Part shown: positions 3,283-38,927 of the stretch, one piece after another
How positions within the stretch are numbered: the stretch's first letter is position 1
Layout: each line of letters starts with the position of its first letter
Assembly: GCF_021032705.1 (NCBI RefSeq)
Contig: NZ_JAHVXI010000002.1
Location: forward strand, 62,001 to 126,000
Length of the DNA stretch: 64,000 nt
Direction: 5' to 3'
DNA from: Psychroserpens luteolus
GTDB lineage: Bacteria; Bacteroidota; Bacteroidia; Flavobacteriales; Flavobacteriaceae
Notes under the pieces: generated by a model
Databases searched by the model: none
Told to the model about the DNA's origin: nothing
Seen by the model: only the letters and a program-made list of their open reading frames with translations
Made by a program: the position numbers and the translations under genes

Positions 3283-3936
3283 CTATTTGTTTTTTATTAA
3301 TAGCGGATACACCTCTCCAGAGTCATGCTCATCAATAATAAACATAAAGTCATTTTTGTAGTTTAGTCCTTCGAACTTTTGTTCAAAGTCCATTTTCATT
3401 AAAGTTTCATGAATCGCAATAAAGCCTTCAAACTTGTATAATTCAAACAGTTCTATAAGTCCGTCTAATTCATCAATATCCACATCTTTATACTCTGAAG
3501 GTAAGTTCTCATCATCTAGTATGGCCAAGGGATCCATAAAACTCATAGTGATTCCTGGTAAGGCATCAAACTTGGTGGCGAAGTCATAGTCGTATCCCAT
3601 GTCAAATTCTTCTGTTTGGACTTCGTAGTCTTTCCAAGTTCCAATGCCATAGGCTGCAGCATCTACACCTTCCATTAAAAAATAGCCATCAAACTCGAAG
3701 AGGATGGCAAATAACTCCTCGTCTCTTACAATGCCCTTTTCAGGATTTATCCACCATTCGTTCAGGTTCTTCTCAATTTCAACCTCTAAGTGTTGCTTAT
3801 AGGTTTCAAAATCATAGGCTTTTAATTCCTGATATAAACGATACAGTAGCTTATCCAAATTAGGGATAGCATTAAAATTGGTGTCGTATTCGTTTTTAAG
3901 ACTGGATAATGTTGCTATTATTTTGCTGTTGCTCAT
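3283..3936 (-). CDS. Unrecognised acidic soluble protein
   Basis: A 217-residue protein with no signal peptide or membrane segment and a strongly acidic middle and C-terminal part (for example EYKDVDIDELDGLIELFEL). I do not recognise the family. Its composition and the FEFDGYFLMEG / WKDYEV segments suggest a small alpha-beta cytoplasmic protein. It stands just downstream of the membrane-anchored gene at 3961-4623 on the same strand with a 24-base gap, so the two may be co-transcribed. Confidence 0.6.
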   Translation of the reverse strand: MSNSKIIATLSSLKNEYDTNFNAIPNLDKLLYRLYQELKAYDFETYKQHLEVEIEKNLNEWWINPEKGIVRDEELFAILFEFDGYFLMEGVDAAAYGIGTWKDYEVQTEEFDMGYDYDFATKFDALPGITMSFMDPLAILDDENLPSEYKDVDIDELDGLIELFELYKFEGFIAIHETLMKMDFEQKFEGLNYKNDFMFIIDEHDSGEVYPLLIKNK

Positions 3937-3960
3937 GGTTACCTATTATAGTTAATAAGA

Positions 3961-4623
3961 TCATTTTTTTCTTGAAAGTTTTATAATCAGAAACACGAAG
4001 CCAACTAGTATGAATAAATAGGGAGAATATCTTCCGATGATATAACCAAGGCGATAACCTTGCGACTTACCGTTAAACTGACTTATTTTATTGTCCTTAT
4101 TTATTTGTGCTGAATTAAAAAAATAATCTTTCGTTTCATTATTAAAAGACACGTCGTCGAAATAACTAAAACAATAAACACTGTTGTTTAATATAAAAAC
4201 ATCTGTCTCACTCGATTGTTTATTATTAGAACTTATCACTTTAAGTTTCATACCAACAAAACTATCTTTCTGGATTTCAATTTCTTCAATGCGCATAGAG
4301 TTTCTACTATTACTAATTCCTTTTGAATACCCTTTATAATACGTCATTAAAGATTCTTTATCATGAGGCAAATTAGATAGATTTTCATCAGTAGAGTTGT
4401 TTTTTAAAGACAATCTTTGGAGCATATATGTAGAGTTGCCAACAGAAGTGTAGATTTGACGTGTATCGATTCCATTCAAAATACTATCTAACACATAAAC
4501 TTTTTCACTAGGCATTCGAACCGAAATTAGCGAATCAAACTTATATTCATACCACTGTGTTTCCTGAGAAAAAGATTGAGCCGAAAAGAACAGCATAAGT
4601 ATTAGAAAAAATGTCTTTATCAT
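3961..4623 (-). CDS. Unrecognised secreted/membrane-anchored protein
   Basis: A 220-residue protein with an N-terminal signal peptide (FFLILMLFFSAQSFSQ, cut near residue 19), a soluble domain of ~165 residues rich in Ser and Asn, and one C-terminal transmembrane segment (YLFILVGFVFLIIKLS) followed by RKK. This is the shape of a periplasmic domain tethered at its C-terminus. The family is unknown to me. Its start lies 40 bases beyond the short repeat element at 4664-4724, so it may be the first stable gene next to the cassette-like block. Confidence 0.6.
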   Translation of the reverse strand: MIKTFFLILMLFFSAQSFSQETQWYEYKFDSLISVRMPSEKVYVLDSILNGIDTRQIYTSVGNSTYMLQRLSLKNNSTDENLSNLPHDKESLMTYYKGYSKGISNSRNSMRIEEIEIQKDSFVGMKLKVISSNNKQSSETDVFILNNSVYCFSYFDDVSFNNETKDYFFNSAQINKDNKISQFNGKSQGYRLGYIIGRYSPYLFILVGFVFLIIKLSRKK

Positions 4624-38251: not shown

Positions 38252-38326
38252 CGGGGTGTAGCGTAGCCCGGTTATCGCGCCGCGTTTGGGACGCGGAGGT
38301 CGCAGGTTCGAATCCTGCCACCCCGA
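38252..38326 (+). tRNA. tRNA-Pro (anticodon TGG)
   Basis: A complete cloverleaf: acceptor stem CGGGGTG with CACCCCG, anticodon stem CCGCG/CGCGG around the loop TTTGGGA (anticodon TGG), and the T-arm GCAGGTTCGAATCCTGC. The CCA end is not encoded. It lies 10 bases before tRNA-Arg in one transcript. Confidence 0.97.
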
Positions 38327-38335
38327 CTTTTATTA

Positions 38336-38409
38336 GGGCTCTTAGCTCAGCTGGATAGAGCACCTCCCTTCTAAGGAGGCGGTCGAAGGTTCGAATCCTT
38401 CAGGGCTCA
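38336..38409 (+). tRNA. tRNA-Arg (anticodon TCT)
   Basis: Acceptor stem GGGCTCT with AGGGCTC (two G-T pairs), anticodon stem CCTCC/GGAGG around CTTCTAA (anticodon TCT), T-arm GAAGGTTCGAATCCTTC. CCA is not encoded. The part from its D-arm to the end, with its terminator, is copied beyond the GIY-YIG gene at 38711-38806. Confidence 0.97.
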
Positions 38410-38412
38410 CAG

Positions 38413-38447
38413 AATCCCTTTCATTAGTTTGGAAGGGATTTCTTGTT
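38413..38447 (+). terminator. Terminator after tRNA-Arg
   Basis: AATCCCTT (38413-38420) pairs with AAGGGATT (38433-38440), then a T-rich run. A near-identical copy is at 38765-38806. Confidence 0.75.
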
Positions 38448-38463
38448 TTACATTGTTATTGTT

Positions 38464-38715
38464 ATGTGTTGTTGCACCTACATTTTATATTCAAAATTAA
38501 TTGATCGTTATTATATCGGCTACACTTGTGATGTCATGTCAGAGCGATTGAGAAAGCATAACACAAACCATAATGGTTTTACAGGAAGAACGAATGACTG
38601 GAAAATTGTTTACTTAGAAAATTATAGCAGTAGGAGCGAGGCATATGCTCGTGAAAGAGCTATTAAAAGTAAAAAATCAAGAACTTATATAGAAAATCTC
38701 ATTGCAAATAGATAG
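38464..38715 (+). CDS. Minimal GIY-YIG nuclease
   Basis: An 83-residue single-domain GIY-YIG nuclease, using the ATG at 38464; a TTG at 38443 lies within the tRNA terminator and would give a shadow extension. YILYS (GIY part) and YYIGYT (YIG part), the catalytic Arg of LRKHN, and the Glu in SEAYARERAIKSKKSRTYIENLI are all present. These UPF0213-type proteins lack a DNA-binding domain. The stop codon TAG lies in the D-arm part of the tRNA-like relic that follows. It is flanked by copies of the tRNA-Arg end, so it looks like a mobile insert. Confidence 0.88.
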   Translation: MCCCTYILYSKLIDRYYIGYTCDVMSERLRKHNTNHNGFTGRTNDWKIVYLENYSSRSEAYARERAIKSKKSRTYIENLIANR

Positions 38716-38806
38716 AGTATTCCGCTAAAGCGGAACGGTCGAAGGTACTCCCGATTCATCGGGAACAGAATCCCTTTCATTAATTTGGAAGGGATTTCTT
38801 GTTTTA
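38711..38806 (+). pseudogene. tRNA-Arg-derived relic with its terminator
   Basis: A 96-base copy of bases 38354-38450 of tRNA-Arg and terminator. It keeps GATAGAG, CGGTCGAAGGT and the whole tail (41 of 42 bases), in the same spacing bar one base lost in the anticodon arm. But the anticodon arm is now a perfect hairpin (TTCCGC-TAAA-GCGGAA) and the T-arm another (TCCCGA-TTCA-TCGGGA), so it cannot be a working tRNA. Confidence 0.85.
38766..38806 (+). terminator. Duplicated terminator after the GIY-YIG unit
   Basis: The same hairpin as at 38413, with one base changed in the loop (G to A at 38783), followed by the same T-rich run. Confidence 0.7.
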
Positions 38807-38927
38807 TAGATTTATATAATGTCTTTTTTATGTGCAATTATAGCTTAATTTGGTATGTCGTTCGTCGATATTTCATCTCTAAAAACGCACTTAGTCGATT
38901 ATTTTTATCATTTAAACGATAAAATAG

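Follow-up and report, generated by a model that had tools for sequence, protein, structure and literature searches.

Homing that duplicates the end of the invaded gene is known from fungal mitochondria. In the elements called mORFs, found in atp6, atp9, cox2 and nad3 of Glomus and in atp6 of Allomyces, a free endonuclease open reading frame (ORF), of the LAGLIDADG type or, in Glomus atp9, of the GIY-YIG type, is flanked on one side by an inserted 3' end, which completes the gene, and on the other by the native 3' end that was displaced (PMC3630166). SegB of T-even phages is a free-standing GIY-YIG homing endonuclease that is linked to tRNA genes, cuts within them and drives tandem amplification, with no particular isotype favored (PMC13096335). 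Here we analyze a 64,000-nucleotide stretch of the Psychroserpens luteolus genome (contig NZ_JAHVXI010000002.1, positions 62,001 to 126,000), called the window throughout, in which an 83-codon GIY-YIG gene lies within a tRNA-Arg gene that looks split and re-completed. The anatomy of this locus is confirmed. We consider it probable, with doubts that are set out below, that the gene and an accompanying hairpin form a minimal mobile unit of the homing type, one that targets tRNA genes and spares the tRNA by duplicating its end.

As in the mORFs, an ORF is found here between the inserted end and the displaced native end of a host gene. As far as the available text goes, mORFs differ in that they occupy organelle protein genes and carry an evidently foreign inserted end, whereas the unit described here occupies bacterial tRNA genes, encodes 83 amino acids (aa) and adds a tRNA end that is often identical to the native one; it also leaves a hairpin behind, has a 5'-end variant and forms tandem arrays. 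With SegB it shares a free-standing GIY-YIG nuclease, linkage to tRNA genes and tandem copies, yet SegB is phage-borne and without isotype preference, and the available part of its description mentions neither duplicated tRNA ends nor a hairpin relic (PMC13096335).

The window protein has the same minimal domain as UPF0213 and Slx1. Slx1 works with Slx4 in DNA repair; we know of no role for UPF0213, and to our knowledge neither is known as a mobile unit, nor do small stand-alone GIY-YIG proteins have an accepted role. Ssn of Neisseria is a small GIY-YIG single-strand nuclease with dispersed palindromic NTS repeats, and we know of no linkage of Ssn to tRNA genes; the hairpin class described here differs in occurring, within the scanned DNA, almost only in tRNA relics. 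A role in moving repetitive extragenic palindromic elements (REPs) is ascribed to RAYT transposases, whereas the ORF of the unit encodes a GIY-YIG protein and not a tyrosine (HUH) transposase. Integrative islands that target tRNA genes likewise keep an intact tRNA and have a partial copy at the far end. Unlike them, the unit is about 350 bp long, has no integrase, substitutes hairpins for tRNA arms and also occurs in a 5'-end geometry. A survey of the GIY-YIG superfamily from 2006 lists stand-alone Slx1-like domains, and its available part does not mention linkage to tRNA genes (PMC1564403). Among the literature matches listed, in which few subscription papers and preprints were covered, none describes GIY-YIG units linked to tRNA genes on bacterial chromosomes. 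What appears to be new is the setting in bacterial tRNA genes, the size of the unit, its two mirror geometries and the relic stamped with a hairpin.

Results

Anatomy of the locus

The elements of the locus are as follows; G020 is the closest relative among the genomes compared.

38336-38410, + strand: intact copy of tRNA-Arg(TCT), which is the target and whose 3' part is probably the newly added copy (ARAGORN, Rfam; native-flank comparison)
38411-38452, + strand: terminator-like hairpin and T-run, copy 1, between the tRNA and the nuclease gene (sequence, folding)
38464-38715, + strand: GIY-YIG nuclease gene, 83 aa, from ATG at 38464 to TAG at 38713-38715 (Pfam, conservation, AlphaFold)
38711-38766, + strand: tRNA-Arg relic, the original 3' part from the end of the D-loop to the acceptor end, two arms turned into hairpins (alignment; G020 flank)
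38720-38735, + strand: hairpin TTCCGC-TAAA-GCGGAA replacing the anticodon arm (class found in 54 of 63 Val/Arg loci)
38749-38764, + strand: hairpin TCCCGA-TTCA-TCGGGA replacing the T-arm (hairpin scan)
38767-38808, + strand: terminator copy 2 (native), then the native downstream flank (in G020 this flank directly follows the native tRNA 3' end and terminator)
38252-38327, + strand: tRNA-Pro(TGG), the upstream neighbor (ARAGORN; Rfam RF00005)

A preliminary description, made from the letters of this stretch alone, had reported the copy, its hairpins and the position of the stop codon, and our analysis bears these out. The 96 bases of 38711-38806 align colinearly (MAFFT) with the 3' two-thirds of tRNA-Arg plus its terminator, and the tail matches at 41 of 42 bases over the range used there; between the terminator copies at 38411-38452 and 38767-38808 two bases differ. 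Both relic hairpins are perfect, and the 64 kb hold no other TYCCG hairpin (stem of at least 6, loop of 3-9); the stop codon of the nuclease lies inside the copied D-arm (GATAGAG, from 38711 on). The longest repeat of the tRNA plus 45 nt that is found downstream in the window measures 23 nt, and Rfam assigns the relic no tRNA score at E<=1. The pairing of tRNA-Pro with tRNA-Arg is recurrent, being present in most of the genus loci fetched.

Occupied and empty sites in the genus

The tRNA stretch was matched in 23/23 genomes of the genus, and a GIY-YIG gene stands at tRNA-Arg(TCT) in four of these 23: the window genome, G013 and G021, the latter two with two tandem gene copies each, and G016, where the gene is truncated. 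One further genome of the 23, G017, has a contig that ends within the tRNA. G020, whose upstream and downstream neighbor proteins are 96.5% and 98.1% identical to those of the window, has no GIY-YIG gene at this tRNA. There TAGACCTAAACAATG... comes immediately after the native tRNA 3' end and the CAGAATCCC terminator; in the window this flank stands behind the relic and the second terminator. The common flank identifies the relic as the original 3' end, still in its native place, and the additions are therefore terminator 1, the gene and the 3' end that the tRNA now has. The direction implied by the preliminary description, which had taken the altered sequence to be the copy, is thus reversed. 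The net insertion relative to G020 is 356 bp, with the GIY-YIG ORF as its sole gene.

A second GIY-YIG gene of the window genome (L002) is located at tRNA-Arg(TCG), in the order partial 5' tRNA copy, gene, intact tRNA; the palindrome CCTGCCTGCGGCAGGCAGG breaks the 5' relic at the D-loop. G020 again lacks the unit here, and its upstream flank matches the flank that precedes the L002 relic. Five other genomes of the genus are also empty there. Occupied and empty alleles, as expected of a homing gene, are therefore found between the window genome and G020 at two tRNA genes, Arg(TCT) and Arg(TCG).

Do relatives without the gene carry the relic too, an outcome that the preliminary description had named as contrary to its proposal? 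The TYCCG hairpin is present in 0 of 18 genus-mates that have an intact tRNA-Arg and no GIY-YIG gene (1.44-1.5 kb downstream scanned). The longest repeat of the tRNA plus 45 nt is 7-13 nt in 17 of them and 35 nt in G009, and in G020 a 46-nt tRNA copy lies 3.2 kb away, beyond the 1.5-kb scan. The two relatives thus do have plain tRNA 3' copies, but these bound other cargo, and the G020 copy has no hairpin. Chance or decay of a duplicated tRNA as the source of the relic is ruled out by the 0/18 result together with the conserved hairpin class described below.

The other cargo is of two kinds. In G020 a different 3.2-kb insertion, with DUF3800 and Beta-protein genes (L062, 1957-5239), lies between the intact tRNA-Arg(TCT) and the native 3' end and is bounded by an exact 46-bp tRNA copy. 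In G009 a carbonic anhydrase gene (L063, 611-2137) at the same tRNA is bounded by a tRNA 3' copy of 47-51 bp.

Such neighbors invite the view that the GIY-YIG gene is cargo of tRNA-integrating islands, moved by a tyrosine integrase in trans, with the relic as remnant of an attachment site. We regard this as unlikely. The tRNA copies of G020 and G009 have no hairpin, the unit adds 356 bp in which the GIY-YIG gene is the only ORF and no integrase gene is present, and three features documented below also speak against it: the 5'-end geometry, the clustering of isotypes by nuclease clade and the existence of similar units at the start of epimerase-like genes.

In the search for further empty sites no clean one was obtained for L123 or L158 (G141, G151, G144, G167 and G166 examined): in the stretches inspected of the first four, a matching tRNA is missing from that position; the site in G166 is occupied.

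Linkage to tRNA genes across Bacteroidota

Profile A1 was built from eight tRNA-linked members, so the figures of this section describe this class and not all small GIY-YIG genes. At E<=1e-6 it matches 87 of the 120 family genomes sampled, including the non-tRNA subfamily, and at E<=1e-10 82 of 148 phylum genomes. A set of 136 clusters was assembled from the 60 best-scoring among the matches listed for the family sample and 76 that alignment A2 contributed (the top 80 out of 189 loci, less four duplicates removed by contig identity), several of the A2 loci being closely related to one another. The family clusters do not include one match in a 690-aa frame or ten others with E up to 1e-13. Loci of metagenome-assembled genomes labelled Streptomyces, Limnohabitans or Paraglaciecola are probably mis-binned Bacteroidota.

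A tRNA on the same strand is found within 400 bp in 93 of 102 clusters with at least 400 bp on both sides, versus 1 of 348 size-matched control ORFs from the same stretches. It is upstream only in 70 of the 93, downstream only in 16 and on both sides in 7; an antisense tRNA within 400 bp occurs in 0/102. Likewise, in the phylum search all 24 full-context loci (of 29) have a same-strand tRNA, in a scoring that, unlike that of the 102 clusters, also counted tRNAs inside arrays; one locus, L317, repeats L233 (shared 60-mers), leaving 23 of the 24 new. Four of the five partial-context loci have a tRNA. The isotypes in the phylum set include Met, Asp, Asn, Val, Ala, Ser, Arg and Thr.

Tandem copies are common. 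Two or more domain hits are present in 42 of the 136 clusters (a split gene counts as two), with array periods of about 304-412 bp in the rows inspected, and several arrays end with a truncated gene. The window protein has no match at E<=1e-6 in 50,697 phage records and none at E<=1e-6 in plasmid records. One long array, L340 (G219:C34:5000-11500), consists of eight GIY-YIG units with tRNA-Met-like relics, in several of which hairpins have taken the place of the anticodon arm and of a second arm as well; that stretch gave no call for an intact tRNA.

Relics, hairpins and terminators

The far side of the gene contains at least 14 nt identical to the adjacent tRNA of the same locus in 71 of 102 clusters that have such a tRNA and sufficient far-side sequence, versus 3 of 102 control regions farther away; these 102 clusters and the 102 of the proximity test are different selections. 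A second outcome that the preliminary description had named as contrary to its proposal, a relic without similarity to the tRNA in any other such locus, is not borne out either, since by the 14-nt test other loci do show one. Both checks thus favor the proposal.

Between the tRNA and the end of the array, 54 of 63 loci of the 3' type at Val(TAC) or Arg(TCT) have a TYCCG..CGGRA hairpin (T[CT]CCG start), with the test span running from the tRNA to 130 nt past the array, about 0.5 kb or more; the rest of the same stretches holds 6 in 266,034 nt. Its stem changes in pairs. Among 47 distinct segments, 23 have C:G and 8 have T:A at position 2, and at position 7 there are 16 with C:G and 11 with T:A, a count weakened by about a third of the segments, which the search pattern had cut wrongly and which were retained. 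At positions 2, 3 and 4 pairing is above every one of 500 shuffles; at positions 1, 5, 6 and 7 it lies above the shuffle mean and below the maximum. Other hairpin classes, recognized by eye, are CCTGCC..GGCAGG at Arg(TCG/ACG) and Met, ATCCGCC..GGCGGA at another Met and TCACGCC..GGCGTGA at Pro.

Two explanations of these features were tried and rejected. Quasi-palindrome correction of the tRNA arms fails, since the native anticodon stem pairs perfectly as it is and another sequence makes up the new stem. Likeness of arms as the reason why the class hits both Arg(TCT) and Val(TAC) was dropped: the Val(TAC) of this genome agrees with Arg(TCT) at only 17/28 positions, Lys(TTT) at 24.

The tRNA genes might instead be frequent landing sites for dispersed palindromes that the nuclease moves, in the manner of a REP-type system or of Ssn with the Neisseria repeats. 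The hairpin indeed resembles the dRS3 pattern ATTCCC(N8)GGGAAT (PMC3898611), and GIY-YIG genes away from tRNAs exist. In a related subfamily of about 100 aa (KKWKR type), represented by 14 loci in the genus, direct repeats of at least 16 nt flank 7/14 versus 0/70 in the control (L003, L004, L009, L014, L023, L026 and L028; ORF at about 1470-1790, oriented), and some loci have REP-like palindromes, e.g. TCATTCCTGCG..GCAGGAATCC. This subfamily may be a second class of mobile unit. As an account of the tRNA-linked units we find the REP-type explanation very improbable: within the scanned DNA the hairpin is found nowhere else in the window and only 6 times in 266 kb of neighboring sequence, and the linkage to tRNA genes is far too strong for chance landing.

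Terminators differ more often than tRNA ends. In 17 of 50 readable loci of the 3' type the terminators after the tRNA and after the relic are poorly alike (local score <=15 of 45), a raw count that includes several terminators that look decayed and not unrelated. In 12 of these 17 the tRNA ends show no mismatch over the 18-32 nt aligned. With differing terminators and agreeing tRNA ends, the unit may bring its own terminator, and the tRNA end looks like a local duplicate or like one that recombination keeps identical. Replacement of the tRNA end by a foreign one was considered and set aside: the ends are mostly alike despite the 17/50 terminators, and local duplication is at least as likely.

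The near-identical terminators of the two copies in many loci, and the frequency of tandem copies, would also be expected if nothing moved, that is, if an old resident gene beside tRNAs had undergone simple tandem duplication of the tRNA operon. We give this hardly any credence, given the empty sites of the closest relative at two tRNAs, the presence of the gene at tRNA-Arg in only 4/23 genus genomes, the poorly alike terminators in 17/50 loci and the many isotypes involved.

A mirror geometry and sites other than tRNA genes

Units occur in two geometries. In the 3' type the order is tRNA, terminator, gene, relic 3' end; in the 5' type, to which L002 conforms, it is relic 5' end, gene, tRNA, and the hairpin is often in the D-loop of the upstream relic. 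In four 5'-type loci at tRNA-Arg (L109, L114, L120 and L124) the reading frame of the nuclease extends into the tRNA gene, which thus encodes the last residues, [RW]PRGA[TI]E, and holds the stop codon in its D-loop.

Some GIY-YIG genes are at protein-coding genes. L156, L161 and L163 (about 3900-4350, oriented) stand at the start of NAD-dependent epimerase-like genes, an identification made from a GGAGFIG motif and not from a family search. Upstream, the first part of such a gene, as far as GGAGF, is repeated, and the intact gene follows. In L143 (about 4000-4480) and L266 (about 1210), ends that by eye resemble the 3' end of transfer-messenger RNA (tmRNA) are repeated around the GIY-YIG gene or stand alone, and tmRNA may be another target.

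The nuclease

The window protein matches Pfam PF01541 (GIY-YIG) with E 3.5e-14 and has no match in NCBIfam. Its predicted fold is the bare domain (AlphaFold, pLDDT 91.2; 28-row alignment A3), and the domain, the catalytic Tyr, Arg and Glu and this fold place it in the GIY-YIG superfamily. By sequence and fold the best solved matches are UPF0213 BH0048 and Slx1 with Slx4; Foldseek returned no PDB match at E<=0.001, UPF0213 BH0048 being best at 2e-3. Y17, R28, E64 and K68 are present in 74/74 aligned proteins, and with catalytic residues so universal the nuclease appears to be kept active. The ratio of nonsynonymous to synonymous substitution rates (dN/dS) between the window gene and that of G021 is 0.12, at a dS of 2.19 that is near saturation; this is the only usable pair, two others having given no dS.

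On a tree of 133 proteins the tRNA isotype changes 44 times, compared with a mean of 74.5 when labels are shuffled (0/200 as low). Labels are those of the nearest tRNA, 23 of the 133 rows being labelled 'none', and many forks are weakly supported because only 81 columns are available. Rows of the Val type include records whose title or placement is Flavobacteriaceae, Cyclobacteriaceae, Chitinophagaceae or Bacteroidales.

Clustering of isotypes by subfamily would also fit a system that acts on RNA, in which the protein cleaves the tRNA as a toxin or regulator akin to anticodon nucleases and the relic transcript serves as decoy or guide. The replacement of the anticodon arm by a hairpin whose pairing is kept through sequence changes agrees with this, as does the orientation of the relic, in the direction of transcription and before a terminator. 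On the other hand, the 5'-type relic is upstream with its hairpin often in the D-loop, some units are at protein-coding genes, and among solved proteins the nearest relatives are UPF0213 and Slx1, a nuclease of DNA structures. Action on RNA alone also leaves the displaced native end at the empty site unexplained. We judge such a system to be quite unlikely.

Discussion

The preliminary description had proposed a minimal mobile unit. This proposal is supported in part: mobility and tRNA targeting are backed by the empty sites, linkage to tRNA in 93/102 and 24/24 loci, relics in 71/102, many isotypes and tandem copies; its idea of the relic as the new copy does not hold, and a 5'-end version and a few sites other than tRNA genes also exist. 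A unit of the homing type is backed by sequence comparison on six points: occupied and empty alleles at two tRNAs, the displaced native end, the hairpin, the same-strand association with tRNA, the clustering of isotypes and the tandem copies. Cutting, movement and a role of the hairpin we infer.

The anatomy fits the following mechanism. The nuclease family would recognize a stretch of the tRNA gene near the anticodon arm and cut the gene there. Entering it, the unit would duplicate the 3' end, or in the other geometry the 5' end, so that the tRNA stays intact, while the displaced native end would remain as a relic outside the unit with a specific hairpin in place of an arm. Recombinational repair from a unit-bearing copy, with the 5' part of the tRNA and the relic serving as homology arms, would accomplish homing, and repeated cutting with unequal repair could give rise to the tandem arrays. 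The hairpin, placed at the former arm and kept as a structure, might be the nuclease's own structured site or a shield against cutting of the relic.

The intact tRNA that persists beside the unit is the regenerated presumed target, and the arm is replaced only in the relic; self-cutting must be avoided, and this is the main difficulty for a homing unit. Several further observations weigh against it. The composition of profile A1 biases the sets towards tRNA linkage. Nine of the 102 full-context clusters have no tRNA within 400 bp, although one of these, L124, has a tRNA inside its array. By the 14-nt test 31 of 102 clusters have no relic, and in only 45 of 102 does the locus's own tRNA outscore every other sampled tRNA, in a sample that held the same isotypes from other species. 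The 14 loci of the KKWKR type have no tRNA in the fetched stretch. At tRNA-Arg(TCT), G016 has neither relic nor hairpin, an example that relics can decay. The unrelated cargo in G020 and G009 makes this tRNA a hotspot for other elements too.

If the homing account is true, small stand-alone GIY-YIG proteins acquire a function, and a very small self-spreading element is added to the known kinds, one that invades essential RNA genes harmlessly and without self-splicing. It would also supply short nucleases with readable, isotype-linked DNA targets, and some tRNA pseudogenes and odd tRNA-like annotation calls may be explained by such units. A wider proposal is tentative, and we lean somewhat against it: the units would be the smallest autonomous elements, of about 350 bp with a gene of 75-100 aa, spread throughout the phylum with a subfamily for each isotype, each rebuilding its tRNA and stamping the relic with a hairpin specific to its nuclease, which would read DNA as folded hairpins, single strands of tRNA genes folding alike.

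Elsewhere in the window's own genome, G000:C11:885521-887587 contains 16 tRNA matches in 2.1 kb, one of them weak-scoring, and looks like a tRNA array.
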